DNA from: Acidimicrobiaceae bacterium | GTDB taxonomy: Bacteria > Actinomycetota > Acidimicrobiia > Acidimicrobiales > RAAP-2 | Assembly (NCBI GenBank): GCA_003132305.1 | Contig: PKXJ01000011.1 | Span: 120,656-161,195, forward strand | DNA length: 40,540 nucleotides | Direction of reading: 5' to 3' | Part shown: one piece after another, positions 15,497-40,250 of the stretch | Layout of the letters: the number at the start of each line of letters is the position of its first letter | Numbering within the stretch: position 1 is the first letter of the stretch | Notes under the pieces: model-generated | Database searches by the model: none | Seen by the model: only the letters and a program-made list of their open reading frames with translations | What the model was told of the DNA's origin: nothing | Program-made: the position numbers and the translations under genes

Positions 15497-15901
15497 GCTG
15501 CAGAACTCCGGCCGGGACTCACTGAAATGGTTGCACCGACGATCCGTGTTGGTAACACGAAACCATCGAGGCCGATCTCTCTGGTTCAAATACCGAGAGA
15601 TGCGAAGCCTGGTTATTACAACTTGAACACCGTCGTTGCCGCCGAAAGGACCGGCAACTGCGGACCGGGGGCGTCAGTTATCCGCGCCGGGCGCTAGTGA
15701 CGACGAACCACGATTCACGATGAAGTTGAGACGGTACGTTGCACTCAAGGTGACTTGAGCCTTGCGTCAGAGACCCGACATGACAGAAGTGCCACCTTGC
15801 ACTGGCGTCTTGATCCCACTTTCATCGGTTTCGCTCGGCGGAATCCAACGATTGACGGATCGCGATTGACCTGGGCGAGACACGTTTCAAAATGAAGCCG
15901 C
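15497..15901. other. Gene-free interval containing the first dispersed repeat
   Basis: No gene is credible here. The leftmost type I repeat copy (15764-15807) lies between the 3' ends of the DUF4242 gene and the ABC permease gene. Confidence 0.55.
15764..15807 (+). repeat. Dispersed repeat type I, copy 1
   Basis: GTCAGAGACCCGAC, then AGTGCCACCTTGCACT and GGCG. The second hairpin pairs AGTGC with GCACT. It is the leftmost copy in the window and isolated from the main array. Confidence 0.85.
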
Positions 15902-18024: not shown

Positions 18025-18584
18025 TTTGACACCCTCCTCCTCTGGCACCCAACCACCATGCTCAGACAATAAACGGACGCCCGGTCACTCGCCATAGGGG
18101 TAAACCCTGACGCCCGCGCGGGTCACTAAGCGCGCACTCCGGCGAAACGGCGCCGCGCTCCTCGCCGAGTTGCACCAACTCGCCGGCAACCTGTCGAGCC
18201 TGCAGTCGGAGACTGTTGGTGTCGGAGACCCTACTTCAACACTCTCCGACTGGAGGATTCAGACATGGAGACTGTAGCGAGACTCTAGCCACCAGAGACG
18301 AGGGCATACTCTGGGTTCGAGTCCTCCAGCGCCCACTCGTTGTCGAAATTACAACGATGTACCTGGTCAAAAAAACTGCGGTTTCCGATGCTTGATGGAC
18401 GACCACGGCAACTGTGCTTGTGTCACGGCAACTGTGCTAGTTCGAACCCTCGGGCACGTTTGCGAAGCGTCCCCGACCGGCGGCGCTGGGGATACACTAG
18501 GAACTCAACGCGGCCTCGAGGGCCTAGCAGTTCCATGCGACTGGTACTTTTGAGCCTTCGAAGGAAGAGCCAAGGAGAAGTCTC
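18025..18584. other. Gene-free interval with a type II repeat and a tRNA-like 3' fragment
   Basis: No gene is credible. The region holds a type II repeat (18218-18256). At about 18311-18336 the sequence GGGTTCGAGTCCTCCAGCGC resembles a tRNA T loop and acceptor arm, but its T stem has two mismatches and no matching 5' half is found. Confidence 0.45.
18218..18256 (+). repeat. Dispersed repeat type II, copy 1
   Basis: GTCGGAGA pairs with TCTCCGAC 14 bases later, an 8-bp perfect inverted repeat. The near arm seen in other copies has decayed to CCCTAC. Confidence 0.8.
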
Positions 18585-21702: not shown

Positions 21703-21866
21703 TAAAGGGAGGTTACGCCCCAGAGGCATACGCGTAGCGGATTGTTCAATTATCGACACCTCGCCTCTGGGCCGCTGGCGCGCAGCGCCAAAGGGCCGGG
21801 TCCGTGAAGTAGTGACTTCAAAGTCCAACTAGAAGAAGGCACACCACGGGGTCGTAACAATCCTGT
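21703..21866 (+). repeat. Long structured repeat (LR), copy 1
   Basis: About 164 bp, closely similar to 36340-36502 and in the same orientation. A perfect 9-bp inverted repeat, CCCAGAGGC (21719-21727) with GCCTCTGGG (21763-21771), is followed by GGCGCGCAGCGCC. In both copies its end runs directly into a short dispersed repeat (CCTGTGGTGTCG), and a minus-strand gene starts 46-48 bp to its left. No coding frame is evident. Confidence 0.85.
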
Positions 21867-21904
21867 GGTGTCGAAGAGTCGACGTCAACAATCCCCGACT
21901 GGCG
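21867..21904 (+). repeat. Dispersed repeat type II, copy 2
   Basis: GTCGAAGAGTCGAC keeps a GTCGA/TCGAC pairing in place of the usual GTCGG/CCGAC, a compensatory change. TCAACAATCCCCGACTGGCG follows. Confidence 0.8.
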
Positions 21905-22142
21905 TATTCACACGTGGTTCCACTCGCCTAGCTAGCCGTGCGCCTAGGGCCGCTCTCATGCAAGCGAAAAGAGGTGAAGGGCTTCGCTCTCGGAGGTCGT
22001 GACGTCCGCTCGTGTTCGTATCGATGAATTGCTCGAGCAGTTGGGTGCACAACGCCCAATGAGTGAGCGGCCCTCGAACTGCTCGCTGTAGAGCTGGTTA
22101 AATGTCGCCGCGAAGTCCCTGTGCGCGGCAGGCATCGTTCCC

Positions 22143-26314: not shown

Positions 26315-26519
26315 GACCTCAACACCGACGAGGTGTGGGCCAAACCAGAAGATGGGGGACGCAGCGTCCTAGTTAAGAAGCTTGTCGAGTCCGTTGAATG
26401 TCCTTTACGGCGAAATAGGACTCAAGGTACCTGAGAGCGTTGGTGTCGGAGACCCGACGCAACAGGAGCGCAACTTCGCACTTGCGTTTGGATTCAAGCC
26501 GATGACTTCTCCTCATTGA
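26315..26519 (+). pseudogene. Serine recombinase 3'-end remnant A, running into the repeat
   Basis: 26315-26395 matches 33317 onward base for base in length (GACCT, GGTGTGGGCCAA, then GTCGAGTCCGT). After a deletion of about 50-60 bp it resumes with NVLYGEIGLKVPESVGVGDP and continues in frame through the repeat (TQQ) to a stop at 26517-26519. The VLYGEVGLK-type ending resembles the extreme C-terminus of actinobacterial large serine recombinases. This copy has a frameshift across the deletion and lacks the catalytic domain. The recombinase identity is by recollection of family endings, not by search. Confidence 0.6.
26442..26486 (+). repeat. Dispersed repeat type I, copy 2
   Basis: GTCGGAGACCCGACGCAACA is intact; the 3' half (GGAGCGCAACTTCGCACTTG) has diverged. 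It is the in-frame 3' end of recombinase remnant A. Confidence 0.85.
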
Positions 26520-26554: not shown

Positions 26555-26992
26555 TCAGGAATCCGAGGGCACTAGGTCAATCTTCCTAATCGTGAATGAC
26601 GTCAAGAAGAAGCCAACGGCGCCCACGCCGAATCCGAGTGCGGTAATCCAGAATGGTGCACTGAATCGATCCATGAAGATGACATGGCCGGCTCTCAGGA
26701 GGTAGGCAGCGCATGAGGCCGCAAACTGCAAACCCAACACCACGTACGCCTTCGCGAGAAGGGACCTCTGGGCGGAGTCCTTGGCCCCCAATTGACACAG
26801 AAACCACCAACCGCCCGCCGCGAACAGCGCCGAGAGGGTTTCCAAGACCAGTTGGGCATAAGTGCTAACGCCAGTCCCGCCCGGGTAGCTTTGGCTCACG
26901 TAGTTATAAGAACTGATTACCGTCGAAAGCGCGAGCAAGGCAAAGCCGCCGAATATCAATCGTCTCGATAACTGATGTCTCGACAAGGTCAC
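26555..26992 (-). CDS. Small membrane protein, four predicted transmembrane segments
   Basis: The 145-residue protein has hydrophobic stretches at about 12-30 (LIFGGFALLALSTVISSY), 48-66, 82-101 (AYVVLGLQFAASCAAYLLRA) and 113-132. I recognise no family. The GTG start lacks a ribosome binding site but has TATGCT 6 nt upstream. It is the single gene between repeat copies at 26442 and 27052. Confidence 0.65.
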   Translation of the reverse strand: MTLSRHQLSRRLIFGGFALLALSTVISSYNYVSQSYPGGTGVSTYAQLVLETLSALFAAGGWWFLCQLGAKDSAQRSLLAKAYVVLGLQFAASCAAYLLRAGHVIFMDRFSAPFWITALGFGVGAVGFFLTSFTIRKIDLVPSDS

Positions 26993-27004: not shown

Positions 27005-27051
27005 CGAGTCGGGTCGAATCGAGAACGGAAACTCGCCGATTGTGGACTAAT

Positions 27052-27097
27052 GGTATCGAAGACCCGACGCAACAGGTCTGGTACCAAACATTGGCGG
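27052..27097 (+). repeat. Dispersed repeat type I, copy 3
   Basis: GTATCGAAGACCCGACGCAA then TGGTACCA and CATTGGCGG. It is followed after 21 bp by a type II copy, forming a type I-type II pair. Confidence 0.85.
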
Positions 27098-27118
27098 TTG
27101 GCTGATGAAGTCGATCTT

Positions 27119-27155
27119 GTGTCGGAGAACCGATGTCAACAATCTCCGACCGGCG
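27119..27155 (+). repeat. Dispersed repeat type II, copy 3
   Basis: GTCGGAGAACCGAT near arm and a perfect far arm TCTCCGAC (8 bp), then CGGCG. It is the best type II example. Confidence 0.85.
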
Positions 27156-27248
27156 AATTGATGCGTGGCGAATTGGTGCTGAGCTCGGTTAGCGCGAAGT
27201 AACGAGAATGGTACTTCGCGTTCTCATCAGGTCAGGGTCCCGGAACCC

Positions 27249-28676: not shown

Positions 28677-29044
28677 GTTTGCGCTGTACGTAAGCAGAGT
28701 TCGCACAGGCGGCCAGGGCGCGCGTCCTGAATCACAGCACCTGAGTACCGCACCGACGAATTCTGCCGATGGATGCGCACCAAACGAGCGAGTTTTTGCC
28801 ACTCTGAGATTTTTGGTGTCGGTGACCTGACGCGGCAGGAATGCAACCTTTCATTGCCGGCTGGCAATTAGGTTCCAAGTGGTGTCGAAGAAGGTAATTT
28901 CAGACACCAATTCGAGGCCATCCGTCCGCTCGGCTGGCTAGTCGACAAGAAGCCAATCAGGGACTACGGAAAGTCGGCCAGCGGCCTAAAGGCCTTGATA
29001 CACTCCTTGCCGGATCAACTACTACGCGAAAGGAAAGGCCGGTC
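28677..29044. other. Gene-free interval with a degenerate repeat copy
   Basis: It holds type I copy 4 (28815-28860) and a 7-bp inverted repeat TGGTGTC (28880-28886)/GACACCA (28903-28909) that may be two opposed half-repeats. No gene is seen. Confidence 0.5.
28815..28860 (+). repeat. Dispersed repeat type I, copy 4 (degenerate)
   Basis: GGTGTCGGTGACCTGACGCG, then AATGCAACCTTTCATT. The second hairpin keeps four of five outer pairs. Confidence 0.75.
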
Positions 29045-29467: not shown

Positions 29468-29654
29468 GCAACAGGGTGCTAAGGCTCTCTTGTTCTCTTA
29501 GAAGGTGCGAGATCCGTTCGTAGTATGGCGATCGATACTAATTGTGTTGCGCAAGAACATCCGACACAATGCATCGTCATGGCGGCTCGAGTCTTGAAGA
29601 TCCCTGGCAATATGAGTGCGAATCATTGTCGGCCCGAACGCAAGGATTGGTTTC

Positions 29655-29699
29655 GAGTCGGAGACCCGACGCAACCGATCTACTACCAAGCACTGGCGC
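29655..29699 (+). repeat. Dispersed repeat type I, copy 5
   Basis: GAGTCGGAGACCCGACGCAA, then CTACTACCAAGCACTGGCG. It continues into a tail TTGAACCAGCGAGGTCTTGA (29701-29720) shared with copies at 32243 and 36503. Confidence 0.85.
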
Positions 29700-29775
29700 C
29701 TTGAACCAGCGAGGTCTTGACTCCCTTGCGCTCCGCCGGGTTCCAGAGACCAGGTGCGGACAGCGCGCGTGTCCT

Positions 29776-30255
29776 CTACCCGTGAGGAAGACAGCGACGA
29801 GCGACCTCCGCGTCGAGGGGACTCAGCCCATCCCACAACTCGCCGGTTGGATCCCACCAAATGAACCTGTTCAACTCCTCACTCTCGACTAGGTGCGGGG
29901 CGCTGCCAATAACGACGGTAAACACCGCGGCCAGGTATCTGGTGGCTTCGCCTCCGAACATGAATTCAGCTCGCGCGACCAGCGAGACCCGGTCAGCCCG
30001 GATGCCCGTTTCTTCCGCTAGTTCCCGAAGCGCCGCCTCGTGAACCGACTCCCCCGCCTCCACCGATCCGCCCGGTAGTTCCCACTGCTGCCGACTGACG
30101 TTGAAGCCGAGCAGCACTTGTCGGCCCCATTCGACTACGACAAGAGAACAAGCGTACGGTGACGTTCCTTCCAGATCTTCCAGCGACGCACTGTCGAGAC
30201 GAATGAACGACACGAGGCTTCCGCCACGCGCGTCGAATATTGGGAGTTCCGTCAT
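29776..30255 (-). CDS. Nudix hydrolase
   Basis: The 159-residue protein has a textbook Nudix box, GGSVEAGESVHEAALRELAE followed by ETGI, preceded by QQWELPGG. It hydrolyses a nucleoside diphosphate linked to an unknown moiety. I chose the ATG at 30253-30255 (MTELPIFDARGG); a TACGGT hexamer lies 6 nt before it, which excludes the longer frame to 30312. It is the single minus-strand gene between repeats at 29655 and 30362. Confidence 0.88.
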   Translation of the reverse strand: MTELPIFDARGGSLVSFIRLDSASLEDLEGTSPYACSLVVVEWGRQVLLGFNVSRQQWELPGGSVEAGESVHEAALRELAEETGIRADRVSLVARAEFMFGGEATRYLAAVFTVVIGSAPHLVESEELNRFIWWDPTGELWDGLSPLDAEVARRCLPHG

Positions 30256-30261
30256 GAACAG

Positions 30262-30267
30262 ACCGTA
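30262..30267 (-). promoter_or_regulatory. -10-like hexamer for the Nudix gene
   Basis: TACGGT on the minus strand lies 6 nt before the ATG. No ribosome binding site is visible. Confidence 0.45.
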
Positions 30268-30361
30268 CAGTGACTCACGCCCACGGTCTCGGACCACGGG
30301 CCCCATGAACAAGAAAAGAGCCGCCGCTTTCGCAACGGCTCTTTACTCTTCTTCGTGGCGG

Positions 30362-30393: not shown

Positions 30394-30435
30394 ACTGACT
30401 GTCTAAGTCCGACGCGCTGGAGTCAGTGCCATGTC

Positions 30436-30618
30436 TTACCCCCGTGGCTTCTCTCCGGGTGGTAGCGCCCACTGGGCGGCGCACCCCACACCTAGACACT
30501 TCCAGTGATCAAGACTGTCCGCAGTGCGGTCCGCCTCACTGGGATCGGCCGCGTAATCGCGCACCGGCGCGTGGTGGTGAGCGTGGCCCTGTCCAGTTTC
30601 TCGTTGCACGATGCCCAT
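30436..30618 (-). CDS. Small His-rich hypothetical protein (60 aa)
   Basis: A 60-residue frame, MGIVQRETGQGHAHHHAPVR... ending CLGVGCAAQWALPPGEKPRG, has a strong GGAGGAG ribosome binding site just before its ATG. It is the only plausible gene between repeats at 30362 and 30768, matching the one-gene-per-interval pattern. Two Cys and a GHAHHH cluster could bind metal. It resembles nothing I know. Confidence 0.45.
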   Translation of the reverse strand: MGIVQRETGQGHAHHHAPVRDYAADPSEADRTADSLDHWKCLGVGCAAQWALPPGEKPRG

Positions 30619-30767
30619 GCTCCTCCAATCGACGAGACGATCTCGTTCACACCCTACGATGCTCTTGCGGGCCCGCCGTGAATTGATTCCCCTAACGCTG
30701 CAAATTACGTGCTCGATGTTGGTTAGGATTTGTCAATCCCTGAAGTGTGGGAACACTCCCACTCAAT

Positions 30768-30813
30768 GGTGTCCCAGGCCCGACGTGACAAGAATGCCAC
30801 CAGGCACTGGCGG
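30768..30813 (+). repeat. Dispersed repeat type I, copy 7
   Basis: GTCCCAGGCCCGAC and TGCCACCAGGCACTGGCGG. The second hairpin uses TGCC/GGCA, a pair change from the common TGCT/AGCA. Confidence 0.85.
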
Positions 30814-30908
30814 CTCGTGTCTGCTCAGTCGTGACGAGTATTTAGGGCTCAACACAACGGTGCCGCCCTTCTTCACCCTCGCGGGAGTGCAAGGCCATAG
30901 CCCAACTT

Positions 30909-31466
30909 TTAGTTTCCTTTCCAACCGAGCTGACTAATTTCTAAACCGCAAGCGATGTCGACTTTGATACCCGACAGGTACACGTCCCCATTCGAGTTCG
31001 GAAGTTCGATGGTCAAGTTCGTGTAAGTATTCGCAGCCGCTACCTTGTCGATTTTGGTGATTCCACCCGTATTGAGCGCGTTGCAATCGTCCGCGGTGCT
31101 GAGCAAGAGCTCCCCACTGATTCGGGGAGACAGCACAGTGGACGGAAGATTGCCAGCGAATGTCCCATGTTTATTGACGTCCAACGTGTAGGTGCGATTA
31201 TCCCTAATGCCTTGAATATTTGGGTAACCCGATAACTTGCATGTCGTGTGGCCCACGTTGATAAGTGCGATTGTGTAGATAAAGTGTCCCGTTGCTGCAC
31301 CCCTGCCAACGTACGCACCCCAGAGGTTGTTCCCCTTGCAAGGAGCAATGTGGGGAGTAGAAGCTGAGGCCACGGAAGCCCCCACGTTCATCATCGGCAC
31401 TCCGACCACAATGCAGAACGTGGTCAGCGCTAGTCGGAAACTGATTCGGGTCGATCGCTGTTTCAT
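30909..31466 (-). CDS. Exported DUF4232-like protein
   Basis: The 185-residue protein has a signal peptide (LALTTFCIVVGVPMMNVGAS), then APCKGNNLWGAYVGRGAATG, IALINVGHTTCKLSGYPNIQ and late GLEI. This pattern of Cys and the NxGxxxCxLxGYP motif is typical of actinobacterial DUF4232 secreted proteins of unknown role. The ATG at 31464-31466 has a clear GGAGGTGA ribosome binding site; a longer in-frame start reads through a repeat copy and is rejected. Confidence 0.82.
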   Translation of the reverse strand: MKQRSTRISFRLALTTFCIVVGVPMMNVGASVASASTPHIAPCKGNNLWGAYVGRGAATGHFIYTIALINVGHTTCKLSGYPNIQGIRDNRTYTLDVNKHGTFAGNLPSTVLSPRISGELLLSTADDCNALNTGGITKIDKVAAANTYTNLTIELPNSNGDVYLSGIKVDIACGLEISQLGWKGN

Positions 31467-31547
31467 GCTCACCTCCGCTGAAGGAGTGCATTCCTCCCTC
31501 ACGCGAAATGGTAGCCACGCGGGCATAGGAGAGGTTCGAAGATTATT

Positions 31548-31593
31548 GGTGTCGGCGACCCGACGCGACAGTACTGCAACCACTCAATGGCGG
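31548..31593 (+). repeat. Dispersed repeat type I, copy 8
   Basis: GGTGTCGGCGACCCGACGCG, then CTGCAACCACTCAATGGCGG. The first hairpin is intact with loop CGAC. Confidence 0.85.
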
Positions 31594-31642
31594 CTGATGA
31601 GAGAAGCGGCAATTTCAAGAGTGTCGGAAGTAATCCAAGTGA

Positions 31643-32134: not shown

Positions 32135-32242
32135 CGCCTTCCAATTAGTAGTTGGTGGAGCGATCGAGCAGATCATGATTCCTACGCGCGAAGCTTGATA
32201 TCTGAGAATGTTGAGGTCAAAGGCCCTTGGCAACAAATTGTT

Positions 32243-32288
32243 GGTGTCGGAGACCCGACGCAACAGATCTGCTACCAACCCCTGGCGG
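32243..32288 (+). repeat. Dispersed repeat type I, copy 9
   Basis: GGTGTCGGAGACCCGACGCA and AGATCTGCTACC, CTGGCGG. It continues with TTTGAACCGGCGCGGTCATG and then type II copy 5. Confidence 0.88.
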
Positions 32289-32311
32289 TTTGAACCGGCG
32301 CGGTCATGACC

Positions 32312-32348
32312 AGTGTCGGAGAGCGGACCTCCACAACCTCCGACCGTC
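32312..32348 (+). repeat. Dispersed repeat type II, copy 5
   Basis: GTCGGAG pairs with far arm CTCCGAC; the near arm is damaged (GCGGAC). It sits 23 bp after type I copy 9. Confidence 0.8.
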
Positions 32349-32422
32349 AATCGAGGCCGTGGCGCCGACAACGCAACTGTCCGGGAGTAACCTCAAGCAA
32401 ACGTTGACTTGCTCCGTCTTAA

Positions 32423-33298: not shown

Positions 33299-33514
33299 GT
33301 GGAGAGCATTCTGAGGGACCTTGACATCGTCAAGGTGTGGGCCAAGGCGGAACACGATGAGCGCCGGGTTCTTGTTGAAGAACTGATCGAGTCAGTGACG
33401 GTCTTCCCCGATCATCTTGAAGTCAAAGCGGCAGGTGCTCCTCCACTCAATGTCCTTTACGGAGAAGTGGGACTCAAGCTACCGGAGATTGTTGGTGTCG
33501 GAGACTGGACATGA
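33299..33514 (+). pseudogene. Serine recombinase C-terminal remnant B, running into the repeat
   Basis: A 71-residue open frame, DLDIVKVWAKAEHDERRVLV then EELIESVTVFPDHLEVKAAG and APPLNVLYGEVGLKLPEIVG, ends VGDWT with a stop inside repeat copy 11. The pattern (helix with ERRxLVEELIESV, beta hairpin DHLEVKAAG, PPLNVLYGEVGL) resembles the extreme C-terminus of actinobacterial large serine recombinases. Catalytic and zinc-ribbon domains are absent. Its last about 58 bp are about 86% identical to remnant A. It is a fragment, not a functional enzyme. Confidence 0.68.
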
Positions 33515-33537
33515 CAGAATGCAACCTTGCATTGGCG
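33494..33537 (+). repeat. Dispersed repeat type I, copy 11
   Basis: GGTGTCGGAGACTGGACATG, then AATGCAACCTTGCATTGGCG. The second hairpin is a perfect AATGCA/TGCATT. It encodes the end of recombinase remnant B. Confidence 0.88.
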
Positions 33538-33568
33538 CTTGGGTTAGACCGTGCGGGTTCTGCTCTTT

Positions 33569-33604
33569 GACCCGACGCGACAGGCCTGCTACCACGCACT
33601 GGCG
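33569..33604 (+). repeat. Dispersed repeat type I, copy 12 (5'-truncated)
   Basis: GACCCGACGCGACAGGCCTG, then CTACCACGCACTGGCG. It lacks the 5' GGTGTCGG. It lies 31 bp after copy 11, with no gene between them. Confidence 0.78.
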
Positions 33605-33697
33605 TTTGGCCACATAATTCCAACGGGTCCCGGAGATTAATCTTGACACATCCAGTACTAGACACGATCGGCTCACGCTAATTTGCGTCAAAAAAGA

Positions 33698-33703
33698 CAT
33701 ACT
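33698..33703 (+). promoter_or_regulatory. Possible -10-like hexamer for the methyltransferase
   Basis: CATACT lies 6 nt before the second of two adjacent ATG codons (33710). This is weaker than the other cases. Confidence 0.25.
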
Positions 33704-33706
33704 GTA

Positions 33707-34450
33707 ATGATGCCGAACTCCGAACATGACGAAACGGTCGACTTAACGCCTTTCGAAGTAGGCAGAGAGCCTCAATATGACTCGTTCGCCGACGAGTATA
33801 TGGACCAAGCATCTCAAGGTTTCTATAACGCTCATTACGATCGTCCCGCATGTCTCGATCTCCTTGGGAATGTCGTCGGCAAGCGAGTCTTAGACGCTGC
33901 ATGCGGGCCCGGATTGTATGCCGAGGAGTTAGTTCATCGGGGCGCTTCAGTTGTGGGATTCGACCAGAGTGAGCGTATGGTGGCACTCAGTCGTGAGCGA
34001 GTTCCCACTGGGGAGTTTCGGGTACATCATCTCGCCGATCCCTTACATTGGCTGGCCGATGAGAGCTTTGATCTCGTTCTATTCCCACTTGCACTCGAAT
34101 ACGTCGATGATCGCGTGAGGGCATTGAGTGAACTGCGACGGGTGCTAAGGGCGGACGGAGCGCTCGTACTGTCGCTGCAACATCCCACGGCCAATTGGAT
34201 CTCCAAGGGTGGAAGTTATTTTGAAACGAGAGTCATCGAAGAAACGTGGAGCAAAGGCTGGCGCGTCCGCTACTGGCTCTCCCCCCTCGAGACCACGTGC
34301 GATGAAGTGAATCGAGCAGGTTTCTTGATTGAACGATTGATTGAACCACGACCAACTGCTGAAGCAGCCCTAATCAATGCTGAAGATTTTGAAAGACTCC
34401 AAACTATGCCTGGCTTTCTCGCGATGCGTCTTATCCCCAGACGTTCGTGA
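33707..34450 (+). CDS. Class I SAM-dependent methyltransferase
   Basis: A 247-residue protein with motif I RVLDAACGPGLYAEELVHRG, VVGFDQSERMVALSRERV and ESFDLVLFPLALEYVDDRV, of the Methyltransf_11/25 type. QHPTANW and YWLSPLETTCDEVNRAGF are typical of SAM methyltransferases with a C-terminal lid. The substrate is unknown. ATG at 33707 or 33710. Its stop is only 20 bp before the next repeat, copy 13. Confidence 0.86.
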   Translation: MMPNSEHDETVDLTPFEVGREPQYDSFADEYMDQASQGFYNAHYDRPACLDLLGNVVGKRVLDAACGPGLYAEELVHRGASVVGFDQSERMVALSRERVPTGEFRVHHLADPLHWLADESFDLVLFPLALEYVDDRVRALSELRRVLRADGALVLSLQHPTANWISKGGSYFETRVIEETWSKGWRVRYWLSPLETTCDEVNRAGFLIERLIEPRPTAEAALINAEDFERLQTMPGFLAMRLIPRRS

Positions 34451-34470
34451 CCTTTCGGGTGTAATCAACT

Positions 34471-34516
34471 GGTGTCGGAGACCCGAAGCAACAGAACTGC
34501 TACCAAGCACTGGCGG
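34471..34516 (+). repeat. Dispersed repeat type I, copy 13
   Basis: GGTGTCGGAGACCCGAAGCA, then CTGCTACCAAGCACTGGCGG. The second hairpin is TGCT/AGCA with loop ACCA. Confidence 0.88.
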
Positions 34517-34613
34517 CTTCTTGTTTAGGAAGCCCGGTCCTTCCTGAAGCCAGGAATAACTTCCCGTTCACGACGTTGGAAGCTCCAGGATTTCCAGGAA
34601 CCTCAACGGTGAA

Positions 34614-35234: not shown

Positions 35235-35346
35235 TTTCTGCCGATCGGTAGTGGTACGCCGACGCTAACAGCGTTAGCAACGGAATATTCGGCACCGCGG
35301 GGATCTATAACTTCGTTCTGCTGAGAAGATTGTTCGAGTTCTCACT

Positions 35347-35400
35347 GGTGTCGGAGACCCGACGTGACAGACCCATTAGGAATGCAACCTTGCATTGGAG
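35347..35400 (+). repeat. Dispersed repeat type I, copy 14
   Basis: GGTGTCGGAGACCCGACGTG, then spacer ACCCATTAGG and AATGCAACCTTGCATTGGAG. A longer variant with a perfect second hairpin. Confidence 0.88.
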
Positions 35401-35465
35401 ATTGGTCAAGAAGACATGAAGATGTCGATATGCATTGCCAAGCGGTCTCACCAATCCCAGAGGTT

Positions 35466-36293
35466 CTATGGCTTCCGGGCGGCGAACAAGAGGTGAGTCC
35501 CCCCGTCCAATGCGCCAGGTTCGGCACATGCGTTGATCTCGTGCCTGATAAAGCGTGCCCAACGATCGGGGTTGGCTTCGATTTCTTCAAGAACGTCTGT
35601 ATCGCTGAGTGACGCCCAGTTACTGGCCGACATCGCTACGACTTCACCGCCGCACGCAGCAACCAGATTTGCGACGTCCCGAGCTCGGTACATCTGGCAA
35701 ACGTGGGACGTCTGAGAGTGCCTCAAGTCGCCCGTGGTCAGCATCAAATCGATGGCGTCTTCTCCCACCGCCTTCATATCCTCGATGGCACCTCGGAGAA
35801 AGAATCGCCACGATCCGAGCCATGACATTACTGAGCCAACGACGAAACCATCGGGCTTCGTGACGCGCAGGAGTCCGGTCAAAGCATCTGCGGCCTCCTC
35901 GAAGGCGTAGGAAAGTGGGCCGCCGTAAGCCAGAACCACGTCATAATCGTTGTCGTCGTATCGCGACGTATCGCAAATGTCGAGGATCTCCCTCGACCGC
36001 ACCGCACCCTCAGCGGGTGTACTTCCAACATGTTGGCGGTGAAGTTCCAACTGAACGGGAGAAAAGTCAGTCACGTCGACCGTGGCCCCTAAGCGCGCCA
36101 AGTCAATGGTGAACCGTCCCGGCCCGGCACCAACTTCGAGCACATGGTCGCCGGGCTTCACGAATCGATCTAGGAACTGGCGATGTACTTCGTATGCGAC
36201 GCGGCCCCGGGGTGACGCTTCGAACCGAGCCCACTCACCTTCTCCGAGCTCGTCGTAGAAGACACGCATTCTCTCGCGGTCGTTCGCCGTCAT
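35466..36293 (-). CDS. Class I SAM-dependent methyltransferase
   Basis: The 275-residue protein has motif I HVLEVGAGPGRFTIDLARLG, then VDVTDFSPVQLELHRQHVGS and DYDVVLAYGGPLSYAFEEA (motif IV). The C-terminus carries a lid region EINACAEPGALDGGTHLLFA. It differs from the methyltransferase at 33707, so it is not a recent duplicate. The ATG at 36291-36293 has TAAGGT 6 nt upstream. The long repeat lies directly beyond its promoter. Confidence 0.85.
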   Translation of the reverse strand: MTANDRERMRVFYDELGEGEWARFEASPRGRVAYEVHRQFLDRFVKPGDHVLEVGAGPGRFTIDLARLGATVDVTDFSPVQLELHRQHVGSTPAEGAVRSREILDICDTSRYDDNDYDVVLAYGGPLSYAFEEAADALTGLLRVTKPDGFVVGSVMSWLGSWRFFLRGAIEDMKAVGEDAIDLMLTTGDLRHSQTSHVCQMYRARDVANLVAACGGEVVAMSASNWASLSDTDVLEEIEANPDRWARFIRHEINACAEPGALDGGTHLLFAARKP

Positions 36294-36339: not shown

Positions 36340-36502
36340 TAAAGAGAAGTTACGCCCCAGAAGCATGCTCAGAGCGGCTGATTCAATTATCGACACCTCG
36401 CCTCTGGGCCGCTGTCGCGCAGCGCCAAGGGGCCAGTCCGGGATGTAGTGACATCAAAGTCCAGCTAGAAAAAGACAAACCACGAGGTGGTAACAAACCT
36501 GT
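36340..36502 (+). repeat. Long structured repeat (LR), copy 2
   Basis: About 163 bp, aligned to copy 1 at 21703-21866. CCCAGAAGC/GCCTCTGGG here has one mismatch in the 9-bp inverted repeat. It ends directly in type I copy 15, as copy 1 ends in a type II repeat. Confidence 0.85.
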
Positions 36503-36548
36503 GGTGTCGGAGACTCGAAGCAACAGTTCTGCTACCAAGCACTGGCGG
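36503..36548 (+). repeat. Dispersed repeat type I, copy 15
   Basis: GGTGTCGGAGACTCGAAGCA, then CTGCTACCAAGCACTGGCGG and the shared tail TTGATCCAGCGAGGTCTTGA before copy 16. Confidence 0.88.
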
Positions 36549-36571
36549 CTTGATCCAGCGAGGTCTTGACC

Positions 36572-36616
36572 GGTGTCGGAGACTGGACGTGACAAGTCTT
36601 CTACCAGTCACTGAAG
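36572..36616 (+). repeat. Dispersed repeat type I, copy 16
   Basis: GGTGTCGGAGACTGGACGTG, then CTTCTACCAGTCACTGAAG, whose second hairpin pairs CTTC/GAAG instead of the usual bases. Confidence 0.82.
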
Positions 36617-36640
36617 ATTGACAGTCGACGGTCGGTAAAC

Positions 36641-36652: not shown

Positions 36653-37240
36653 ATGCCGGCGCCTCTGATCGTTCTGAACGGTCCAAGTAGCGCAGGAAAG
36701 ACGTCCATCATCACTGCTCTCCAAGGCCTTTGGCCCCGCCCCTTGTTTGTCTCGGGCATTGATACGTTCATCGCCGGGTGGCCTGAGTCCCACGTCAGCT
36801 TTCCGGGCGATGACGGCTCACCCGCGCCCGTTTCAGCCATGCGTATCGTTCCCGGCCTCGGCCCGGCGCCGTCGTGGATTCCCCAATACGGCGACGAATT
36901 CCACACAGTGACGCGACTGGCACATGAGTCGTGGGCCGCGATGAGTCAAGGTGGCATTGATCTGATCGTCGACCACGTGATCATTGACGCGACGATACGT
37001 GACCAAGCGAGGAGCACGCTCGTTTACGCGTTTTGGGTCGGAGTCACGTGCGACGTAGGCGAACTCGTGCGACGCGAAACTGCGCGAGGCGACCGATACC
37101 CCGGTTTCGCGTCTGGTACCTCCGCTGTAGTGCATCGCGAAATGACCTACGACCTAGTTGTCGACACGACCACCACTCCTACGGACATACTCGCCCACCA
37201 GATTTACGACGCTGTGATGGGAAGACAGAACGACTATTGA
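36653..37240 (+). CDS. Chloramphenicol phosphotransferase-like P-loop kinase
   Basis: The 195-residue protein has Walker A NGPSSAGKTS at residues 9-18, followed by FVSGIDTFIAGWP, which carries the conserved Asp of the chloramphenicol 3-O-phosphotransferase family. The later part has VDHVIIDA, a lid RRETARGDRYPGFA and the C-terminal helix. It probably phosphorylates a hydroxyl on a small molecule; true chloramphenicol resistance is not shown by sequence. It fills one repeat interval, like a resistance-type cassette. Confidence 0.85.
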   Translation: MPAPLIVLNGPSSAGKTSIITALQGLWPRPLFVSGIDTFIAGWPESHVSFPGDDGSPAPVSAMRIVPGLGPAPSWIPQYGDEFHTVTRLAHESWAAMSQGGIDLIVDHVIIDATIRDQARSTLVYAFWVGVTCDVGELVRRETARGDRYPGFASGTSAVVHREMTYDLVVDTTTTPTDILAHQIYDAVMGRQNDY

Positions 37241-37323: not shown

Positions 37324-37346
37324 TAGCTAGCGTTCTGAGCCTGCCT

Positions 37347-37391
37347 GGTGTCGCAGACCCGACGCCTCAGATCTGCAACCTTGCACTGGCG
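37347..37391 (+). repeat. Dispersed repeat type I, copy 18
   Basis: GGTGTCGCAGACCCGACGCC, then ATCTGCAACCTTGCACTGGC. The second hairpin is TGCAA/TTGCA. Confidence 0.85.
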
Positions 37392-37415
37392 ACTTGCCCA
37401 AGGCGAGCCGTGATT

Positions 37416-37461
37416 GGTGTCGGAGACCCGACGCAACAGGTCTGCTACCAGACATTGGAGG
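37416..37461 (+). repeat. Dispersed repeat type I, copy 19
   Basis: GGTGTCGGAGACCCGACGCA, then TCTGCTACCAGACATTGGAG. It lies 24 bp after copy 18. Confidence 0.88.
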
Positions 37462-37479
37462 TTAATGACGCAGTACTGA

Positions 37480-38166: not shown

Positions 38167-38213
38167 TTGTCTCGGAGAACCGACGCAATAGGCCTGCTAC
38201 CAGACATTGGCGG
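38167..38213 (+). repeat. Dispersed repeat type I, copy 20
   Basis: TCTCGGAGAACCGACGCAAT, then CTGCTACCAGACATTGGCGG. The first hairpin keeps TCGG/CCGA. Confidence 0.83.
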
Positions 38214-38350
38214 CTCGGGTAGCAATTTCGTGAGCGCGATTTAGCGACGTTCGCTCAGTTAGCGAGAGAATACTAAAGTCAATTTCGAGCCGTCGTCGAC
38301 ATCGCTCAATCTGTTCTTGTTCGATTTCTACCGGAGCGTGAGTAATTCGG

Positions 38351-39127: not shown

Positions 39128-39181
39128 GCTGTCTAGAAATTCGCTTGAAGAAGTCGGACTTCACGCTGGTCGCAGACCTGT

Positions 39182-39227
39182 GGTGTCGGAGACCCGACGC
39201 AACAGATCTACTACCGGCCACTGGCGG
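39182..39227 (+). repeat. Dispersed repeat type I, copy 21
   Basis: GGTGTCGGAGACCCGACGCA, then ATCTACTACCGGCCACTGGC. The bases just upstream (GAAGTCGGACTTCACGCTGG) read EVGLHAG and faintly resemble the recombinase endings at 26442 and 33494. Confidence 0.88.
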
Positions 39228-39277
39228 CTCCATCAATGCCCGTACTTCAAGGTTGCCAACGTTTACTCTGAGGGCTG

Positions 39278-40054
39278 ATGCTTGTCGTATCCACACCGAC
39301 CGACGCACTACGGGCTGCGCTGGTGCAGCTTGGTGCCGTTGCGTATTCCGAGATTCCAAAATGGGAACCGCTTATCGACTCGATCGCGGTAGTGATAGGC
39401 GCCGATCCGGCAGACGTCCACCTGACCGTGGGCCTCGACTGTGAAGTCGAAGCAGTCGAAACTCTCTGGTTCGAGCGCATCCGTCCGTTTGAGGCGAATC
39501 TTCGAGCGGGACGACGGGCTCCACGACGCCAAAGGCCCGTGTTGGCGCAACCAGACCCGACGTGGCCGGACCAGGCCGAGCGTTTGATTGCGCGTCTCTG
39601 CACTACTACGGGCTCGTCAGTTCGTCGCATCGATCACATCGGTTCAACTTCCATCCCCGGTCTGCCGGCGAAGGACATCATCGACATCCAGGTAGTTGTC
39701 GACGATCTCGTCGTCGCATTAGAGTTAGCGAGACATGCCCGTCGGGCTGGCTTCGTGCAGGTTGAGGGCGATTGGTTCGGCGAAGATCGCGACGGCGTGG
39801 AGTTCCGAGAAGTGGTAGCAGTCAACGCCGACCCAGGCAGACCGGTCAATGTGAACTTCCGGTCGTTCACTGATTCCGTCTGGAAAGAGACACTCCTGTT
39901 TCGCGACTTCCTTCGCGGCAATACCTCCGAGCGTCACGGTTACGCCGAAATGAAGCGTTCCCTCGAGGCTCAGGGCCTAGACGTCGATCGTTACGGTGAA
40001 CTCAAAATGCCCTACATCAGGGCGATACTGAGTAAGGCGGACACGACGCCCTGA
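39278..40054 (+). CDS. GrpB family protein with a CoaE-tail-like N-terminal region
   Basis: The 258-residue protein has from about residue 90 a GrpB domain: WPDQAERLIARLCTTTG, RIDHIGSTSIPGLPAKDIID and the acidic end of the nucleotidyltransferase-like fold. Immediately before it, ETLWFERIRPFEANLRAGRR resembles the C-terminal tail of actinobacterial CoaE in CoaE-GrpB fusions. The kinase P-loop is missing: residues 1-85 (MLVVSTPTDALRAALVQLGA...) show no Walker A. It is thus probably a split-off or rearranged GrpB module, not a dephospho-CoA kinase. TACTCT lies 8 nt before the start. Confidence 0.78.
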   Translation: MLVVSTPTDALRAALVQLGAVAYSEIPKWEPLIDSIAVVIGADPADVHLTVGLDCEVEAVETLWFERIRPFEANLRAGRRAPRRQRPVLAQPDPTWPDQAERLIARLCTTTGSSVRRIDHIGSTSIPGLPAKDIIDIQVVVDDLVVALELARHARRAGFVQVEGDWFGEDRDGVEFREVVAVNADPGRPVNVNFRSFTDSVWKETLLFRDFLRGNTSERHGYAEMKRSLEAQGLDVDRYGELKMPYIRAILSKADTTP

Positions 40055-40190: not shown

Positions 40191-40227
40191 GTGTCGGAGG
40201 GCCGACATCCACTTTTTCCGACTGGAG
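40191..40227 (+). repeat. Dispersed repeat type II, copy 6
   Basis: GTCGGAGGGCCGAC near hairpin, and TCCGAC as a shortened far arm (pairs with GTCGGA). It precedes the small membrane gene. Confidence 0.82.
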
Positions 40228-40250
40228 ACTGACGGTATGGTCAGTTTGAT

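Follow-up and report, generated by a model that had tools for sequence, protein, structure and literature searches.

A 49-bp site bordering gene cassettes, with a core that recurs at the ends of tRNA-Leu(GAG) and large serine recombinase genes, suggests an integron-like system in one genus of Acidimicrobiaceae

The window, that is, the whole 40,540-bp stretch of DNA analysed here, comes from an Acidimicrobiaceae genome of 2.9 Mb in 35 contigs (G000:C23:120656-161195) and carries an array in which copies of a short repeat alternate with small genes (Table 1). The core of the repeat has 19 matches in the window at three mismatches or fewer, all on the + strand, when shuffled sequences lead one to expect 0.01. 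The cassette genes of the window lie in both orientations and include NUDIX, L-PSP, Dabb, methyltransferase, CPT-like, DUF2785 and GrpB genes, among others. Over all genomes with arrays, intervals between sites (n = 205) have a median length of 746 bp, with 35 of them shorter than 100 bp. Among the 118 intervals of 300-1500 bp, a single nonoverlapping open reading frame of at least 80 aa is found in 102, two are found in 13 and none in three.

Table 1. Sites, cassettes and recombinase remnants in the window (positions are those of the window)
Feature	Position	Strand	Basis or comment
Isolated A-type site ahead of the dense array	15762-15810	+	core matches
B-type site	18221-18260	+	B-type search
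B-type site; left flank recurs at the A-type site at 36502	21870-21909	+	B-type search
Second clade I recombinase C-terminal remnant, frame-shifted	26315-26440	+	recombinase matches
A-type site after the 26315 remnant	26441-26489	+	core matches
A-type site	27051-27099	+	core matches
B-type site, same core, alternative right arm; core 66 bp after that of the 27051 A-type site	27121-27160	+	
A-type site	28814-28862	+	core matches
A-type site	29653-29701	+	core matches
NUDIX hydrolase cassette gene	29776-30312	-	544 bp of the cassette 87.7% identical to G012 array DNA
Cassette, first site (30353) decayed; nearly full length in G029:C41, both neighbours different	30398-30766	+	
A-type site	30767-30815	+	core matches
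Cassette (gene 30909-31583, -, weak DUF4232); whole in G049:C15, both neighbours different	30816-31546	+	
A-type site	31547-31595	+	core matches
A-type site	32242-32290	+	core matches
B-type site; core 69 bp after that of the 32242 A-type site	32315-32354	+	
Clade I large serine recombinase C-terminal remnant, without catalytic domain	33299-33492	+	homology to full-length relatives
A-type 49-bp site, in frame with the 33299 remnant	33493-33541	+	site search
Decayed A-type site, left arm gone	33559-33607	+	
Methyltransferase cassette gene	33683-34450	+	
A-type site	34470-34518	+	core matches
A-type site with short insertion	35346-35403	+	
Methyltransferase cassette gene	35466-36293	-	
A-type site	36502-36550	+	core matches
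A-type site, 69 bp after the 36502 site	36571-36619	+	core matches
Chloramphenicol-phosphotransferase-like (CPT) cassette gene; related cassettes in G049 and G012	36653-37240	+	
A-type site	37346-37394	+	core matches
A-type site, 69 bp after the 37346 site	37415-37463	+	core matches
A-type site	38167-38215	+	core matches
A-type site	39181-39229	+	core matches
GrpB family cassette gene	39278-40054	+	
B-type site	40193-40232	+	B-type search
A-type site near the contig end	40467-40515	+	core matches

Two of the repeats are preceded by fragments of a coding sequence. From 33299 to 33508, 70 residues can be read without a stop, ending NVLYGEVGLKLPEIVGVGDWT, and the stop then falls inside the repeat. 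This remnant and the C-terminal end of an open frame of 497 aa in a relative (G046) share 71% identity, and a further comparison gave 67% across 73 aa; a Pfam scan gave zero matches of its own. The remnant at 26.3-26.5 kb is more decayed, being split into two pieces in differing frames, and a single frame read through it meets stops. Across the 58 bp that end GGTGTCGGAGAC, the two remnants are 86.2% identical, compared with a mean of 26% and a maximum of 59% in 20,000 random pairs of 58-mers from the window. A sequence-only reading of the window had taken both for ends of a large serine recombinase, about 86% identical over this length and running in frame into the repeat. The recomputed identity agrees with it, and full-length homologues in relatives have the same ending peptide. 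The claim about the frame stands for the 33299 remnant, and at 26315 it stands for the last piece alone, the rest being frame-shifted. We can thus confirm that a large serine recombinase has left its decayed C-terminal end at 33299-33492, reading in frame into the repeat. The same frame at 36502 passes, as had been noticed, through the repeat to the TGA of GGCGGCTTGA.

When used as a query, the 70-residue remnant matched 39 of 148 genomes, its own included, and several of the matches lie within open frames of about 480-580 residues. The five full-length relatives that were scanned, and two more besides, have the Resolvase, Recombinase and zinc-ribbon domains typical of large serine recombinases. 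Thirteen aligned genes show 43-84% identity to the first of them, and two kinds can be told apart by their C-terminus: clade I (...EVGLKxSExVGVGGGT) and clade II (...GCKPVVSEAG...). The best relative of solved structure is the catalytic domain of TP901-1 integrase, and the best annotated phage record is about 30% identical to the family. A full-length recombinase is found in 15 of 109 genomes, many array-bearing genomes, including that of the window, being without one. In the latter genome, the Resolvase profile detects no Resolvase-domain gene and the full-length profile no full-length recombinase; there are remnants only, with five further matches at four places. The same genome has 14 tyrosine-recombinase matches, which counts against assigning the arrays exclusively to serine recombinases. 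The first cassette gene of the window array (26555-26992, - strand) is 66% identical to a gene (L084 3791-4225, - strand) just upstream of the clade II recombinase of G047.

The places where these recombinase genes end have one element in common. At eight of the first 20 relative loci, the gene enters the 3' end of tRNA-Leu(GAG) in antisense, and at another eight it ends at the core, which there leads into CCGACGTGAACCC or a close variant, with neither tRNA nor array site. The rest are two remnants ending at array-like sites (L074 and L085), a decayed locus (L080) and one cut by a contig end (L081). Similarly, a tRNA-Leu called by ARAGORN overlaps 15 of 30 recombinase homologues, some on contigs shared with the first 20 loci. 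This abutment of many recombinases on the tRNA-Leu 3' end was beyond the view of the window sequence alone. Open full-length recombinases that end at an array-type site also exist: a clade II gene that ends at an A-type core plus inner arm (L277), another gene that ends at an A-type site (L158), and the second, clade II member of a tandem pair, which ends at a B-type site (L068). Therefore, the end of the recombinase gene stays at the core, whether tRNA, array site or CCGACGTGAACCC follows. In L084, L083 and L278, the recombinase is placed between the array and the tRNA. Sites are found in 13 of the 15 genomes with a full-length recombinase versus 32 of the 51 others of the genus, a difference that is not significant (Fisher p = 0.12).

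An alignment of 249 sites delimits the conserved part of the repeat sharply to 49 bp, TGGTGTCGGAGRCCCGACGYRACAGRTCTGCAACCTTGCAYTGGCGGCT, outside which almost nothing is conserved. Its inner part is a dyad, GTCGGA-GR-CCCGAC, with GG or GA at the centre in 261 of 273 sites. These 273 were kept from 298 site matches (E limit 0.001, recognisable core, some duplicate loci omitted), the E-values relating to the fetched sequences only. The array repeat starts TGGTGTCGGAGRCCCGACG, and the tRNA-Leu 3' end read in the same direction is TGGTGTCGGAGGCGGGACTTGAACCC. At 67 places, a similar core is followed by an alternative right arm, which defines the B-type. We rejected a long palindrome as the general form of the site because only a few B-type sites are long dyads (17-18 of 23 arm positions), the means being 8.9 (A-type) and 9.1 (B-type) of 23. 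We also rejected an RNA element, as an alignment of 45 sites yields no shared fold with RNAalifold. Sites occur in 46 of 109 genomes, that is, in 45 of 66 within the genus and, as a weak match, in one of 43 outside it, many of the genomes being fragmentary assemblies with contigs that frequently end within arrays. Strong sites next to each other almost always share a strand (189 of 190 pairs). In a check for a replication-strand bias behind this uniformity, GC skew in the orientation of the repeat was positive in 22 cases and negative in 35 (p = 0.11), which lends such a bias no support. Same-strand clusters also lie tens to hundreds of kb apart on single contigs (G049:C10, G049:C19, G049:C11, G050:C11 and G050:C29). 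Paired sites are common, with an offset of 69 bp in 41 and of 66 bp in 14 of the 273 sites, examples being 36502/36571 and 37346/37415 in the window and many in relatives; the spacer of about 20 bp between them is possibly an empty mini-cassette.

Between genomes, sharing goes cassette by cassette. For example, a cassette of 935 bp on contig C20 recurs over its whole or nearly whole length in G050 and G017. We compared the neighbours of homologous cassettes in 40 pairs from different genomes, which amounts to 80 sides, 53 of them untestable since the neighbour is missing or shorter than 150 bp; at all 27 testable sides, the neighbours differ. The gene pyrG lies both on the contig of the window and on one array contig of G049, and these arrays share only a few cassettes, in a different order. 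Among the relatives, one cassette (L084 2147-2649) encodes a ParE-type toxin together with a Phd/YefM antitoxin, and homologous cassettes are present in three other genomes (L100, L132 and L134).

Next, we mapped where homology between such cassettes begins and ends by measuring positional identity in all 15 start-aligned and all 15 end-aligned cassette pairs against random site pairs. In start-aligned pairs, the left flank is at background (0.30 vs. 0.29) and the outer right arm is raised (0.79 vs. 0.59). In end-aligned pairs, the left flank is raised (0.68 vs. 0.29) and the outer right arm is at background (0.59 vs. 0.59). Hence, a cassette takes along the right arm of the site before it and the left arm of the site after it. 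The switch in homology thus lies inside the site, around its centre, and from the dyad we infer the exact base pair of the crossover. This full set is more trustworthy than an earlier, finer map of seven of the 15 start and 10 of the 15 end pairs, picked by eye as free of gaps, in which two start and two end pairs stood beside a third pair from one cassette trio. Moreover, 140 of 904 ends of homologous blocks fall near sites, compared with 35 ± 5 at random places. One exchange at the core is visible within the window itself: a left flank of about 180 bp (21703-21882 and 36340-36518, 84-87% identical) leads into a B-type right arm at 21870 and into an A-type one at 36502. Possibly another type of recombinase ends in this flank.

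The arrays are positioned with respect to tRNA-Leu(GAG). Wherever a fetched stretch includes both the tRNA and array sites (14 of 14), the sites follow the tRNA on its 3' side in antisense orientation; two of these 14 contigs have further clusters far off on the 5' side (G049:C10 at 51-118 kb and G050:C29 at 320 kb). The last site is only about 70 bp from the tRNA core in G017 and G041, and the array starts within 4 kb of the tRNA in G049, G012, G034 and G023. Ten other fetched tRNA-Leu contigs are site-free in the stretch seen (G043, G028, G026, G008, G040, G047 C16, G058, G010, G045 and C22 of the window's own genome). That C22 carries the intact tRNA-Leu(GAG) of the window's genome (G000:C22:6861-6948); about 50 bp from its 3' end there is, as judged by eye, an apparent end of an insertion-sequence transposase, after which the contig stops. 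A degenerate tRNA-Leu fragment lies within an array contig of the same genome (G000:C33:32323-32373), and partial copies are also present in G012, G050 and G029. The partial copy is about 9 kb from the whole one in G050 and G029, and no recombinase was found in these 9-kb intervals. In G043, the start of C23 is identical to C55 for 79 bases, and the two fork exactly after TGGTGTCGGAGGC into tRNA-Leu or a cassette. Such a fork is as expected if excised and unexcised forms were both assembled, which is possible, as is the presence of two genomic copies.

The centre of the site varies in step with the tRNA. The dinucleotide in tRNA-Leu is GA in G000, G049, G012, G028, G014, G008 and G046 and GG in the other genomes read. 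We scored 29 genomes (E limit 1e-5, duplicates removed), reading the tRNA state by eye in 25, with the states of G005 and G009 taken from partial tRNA copies. The majority dinucleotide of the arrays is that of their own tRNA-Leu in 22 of 22 genomes with a majority, three more being without one. Counted by site, there are 104 GG and six GA under GG tRNAs and 22 GG and 107 GA under GA tRNAs; the window's genome has a GA tRNA, yet 18 of its 68 sites are GG. In a tree of pyrG, found in 28 of the 30 genomes asked, the GA genomes whose arrays were scored (G000, G008, G049, G012, G014 and G028) group as a single clade, and G046, with zero scored sites, is GA through a separate change. The concordance is thus essentially one change common to tRNA and arrays rather than 22 independent ones. 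With genomes held fixed, neighbouring sites have the same centre in 163 of 184 cases, compared with 150.8 ± 3.4 in within-genome shuffles, of which two in 5000 reach the observed value. This test supports dinucleotide matching.

In our view, large serine recombinases targeting tRNA-Leu(GAG) are likely to serve an integron-like cassette system here, with the repeat as its site of recombination. Usually a single gene, each cassette would carry the right half-site (about 38 bp) at its start and the left half (about 11 conserved bp) at its end, and strands would be exchanged at the dinucleotide in the middle of the dyad (GG or GA in GTCGGA-GR-CCCGAC). The tRNA-Leu 3' end, which has the left half and the centre in common with the site, would be the entry and anchor site and play the role of attI in integrons. 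The recombinase gene would itself be the cassette that terminates at the core, so that its last codons would overlap the site and remnants such as 33299-33492 would run into the repeat. Our comparisons of genomes show gene-sized units, exchange around the site centre, tRNA-Leu anchoring, a matching dinucleotide and recombinase genes that end at the core. These recombinases are the best candidates for the enzyme because their gene ends at the core and sits between array and tRNA in the three loci named above, and because the serine recombinase class requires matching central bases. Cassette movement would then be catalysed by this family, with the cassettes presumably moving as circles and with a polarity of insertion. 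The arrays of the window's genome, in which we found no intact recombinase of the family, would be orphan clusters of cassettes. Several points count against this model: full-length recombinases are found in few genomes and have no clear association with arrays, some of them end at neither a tRNA nor an array site, none was found between the partial and whole tRNA copies of G050 and G029, the dinucleotide concordance comes down to essentially one change, and arrays need recombination of like by like, which is unusual compared with classical attP x attB integrases.

An alternative is that recombinase elements entered tRNA-Leu and tRNA-like sites in succession, stacked and decayed, so that the repeats are left-over attL and attR and the genes are remains of cargo. 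The sequence-only reading had pointed in this direction by proposing that the repeat is a recombinase 3' end plus its attachment site and that the cassettes were left by lost recombinase elements. The partial tRNA-Leu copies in or near arrays, the tandem recombinases of L068, the window's genome without a full-length enzyme and the remnants themselves would all fit such a history. However, a recombinase remnant lies within 300 bp upstream of only 16 of 297 distinct sites, with two remnants counted twice through paired sites (in the window, upstream of three of 20 sites, from two remnants), and the other 281 sites are without one. Moreover, the compact, mostly one-gene intervals are common to genomes one by one with every testable neighbour different, and decay does not predict that the same cassette is precisely re-joined inside the site in different genomes. 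We therefore consider this history of decay unlikely. As to the earlier proposal, an attachment-like site does coincide with the recombinase 3' end, but most repeats are not the end of a recombinase gene. Because so few sites follow a remnant, the origin of cassettes by loss of recombinase elements is only partly right, the intervals being gene units exchanged at the site centre rather than leftovers.

Could the arrays be a true integron with a tyrosine integrase and attC sites too divergent to recognise? Their layout and cassette content, including the ParE/Phd toxin-antitoxin cassette of L084, are like those of chromosomal integrons. However, the integron integrase profile TIGR02249 finds none over the cut-off in 109 genomes, the best score being 101.7 of 265 bits. 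The attC end boxes, which we take to be RYYYAAC ... GTTRRRY, are found around none of 272 sites on either strand, compared with a mean of 0.8 in shuffles. No conserved fold is predicted for the 45 sites aligned, and exchange takes place around the centre of a short dyad common to the tRNA and the ends of serine-recombinase genes. We thus regard a divergent integron as highly improbable. The arrays seem integron-like in their working, yet with neither IntI nor attC end boxes detected they depart from integrons in two defining features. That the repeats are passive, such as terminators or dispersed short elements between which ordinary homologous recombination exchanges cassettes, we judge very doubtful: they are numerous and intergenic, and such recombination would also enrich block ends at them, but random copies agree at only about 60-80% of site positions, which is little for homologous recombination, there is no conserved RNA fold, and the 189 of 190 same-strand neighbours, the tRNA anchoring and the dinucleotide concordance would be left unexplained.

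Returning to the serine-recombinase cassette system, we compared it with known systems. Integron cassettes are described as generally one open reading frame plus a site, with toxin-antitoxin cassettes and an attachment site beside the recombinase (PMC8618304), and cassette clusters without a recombinase go by the name CALIN (PMC7923331). The arrays resemble chromosomal integrons and CALINs in their mostly one-ORF cassettes with a site, their toxin-antitoxin cassette, an attachment site next to the recombinase and their recombinase-free clusters. In contrast to chromosomal integrons, they have no IntI over the cut-off, no attC end boxes, a candidate serine recombinase, a dyad site exchanged around its centre, an anchor at the tRNA-Leu 3' end and, in the window, genes in both orientations. 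Actinobacterial integrative elements (AICEs) offer another parallel, as a group of eight Mycobacterium recombinases of integrative elements is reported to insert at tRNA-Leu (PMC3218068). The arrays share with them a serine recombinase at tRNA-Leu, here in eight of 20 loci and 15 of 30 homologues, which suggests an ancestry for the array system. Unlike AICEs, which are conjugative and have many genes, the arrays have one site family bordering dozens of mostly one-gene units. Elements of the staphylococcal cassette chromosome (SCC) are similar in that they use serine recombinases (Ccr) and stack their units in tandem at a single site within a host gene, whereas SCC units are few, tens of kb long and target rlmH, and those described here are gene sized and target tRNA-Leu. 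Phage large serine integrases (A118, Bxb1 and TP901-1) are alike in their Resolvase, Recombinase and Zn ribbon domains and in having a near-palindromic site with a central dinucleotide, as described for A118 attP (PMC3783163). Classical serine integrases are reported to recombine attP with attB only and to require a further factor for excision (PMC3783163). In contrast, here there are many copies of the site, apparently recombining with each other.

A survey of the open-licence full-text literature, a narrower scope than print overall, returned no description of cassette arrays of serine recombinases. To our knowledge, no system other than the integron is widely known to build long arrays of exchangeable cassettes with one gene each, and integrons depend on a single lineage of tyrosine recombinases. 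On balance, we think it probable that in one genus of Acidimicrobiaceae a family of tRNA-Leu-targeting integrases has independently become the serine-recombinase equivalent of an integron: in each genome, dozens of cassettes, most of them with one gene, would be excised and inserted in trans at the 49-bp site, with a tRNA as entry platform and a centre that changes in concert between tRNA and arrays. If so, cassettes would be shuffled by a second system, anchored at a tRNA and using a short dyad and an enzyme of an unrelated class, and cassette shuffling would have evolved more than once. The system would also offer sites and enzymes that can be tested directly, perhaps a means of stacking genes, and a supply of unknown genes of uncultured bacteria, and it raises the question of how a normally one-way integrase would permit repeated exchange of like by like.

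Related recombinases are also encoded on viral contigs. One scan of viral contigs for the exact core gave no match. The five nearest IMG/VR recombinases (L313-L317, from 80 viral loci kept) are 61-73% identical to the family, and weak site matches are seen in two of them. Four of the five run into tRNA-Leu-like sequence, a tRNA gene being called in none, which suggests that viruses may use the same enzymes.
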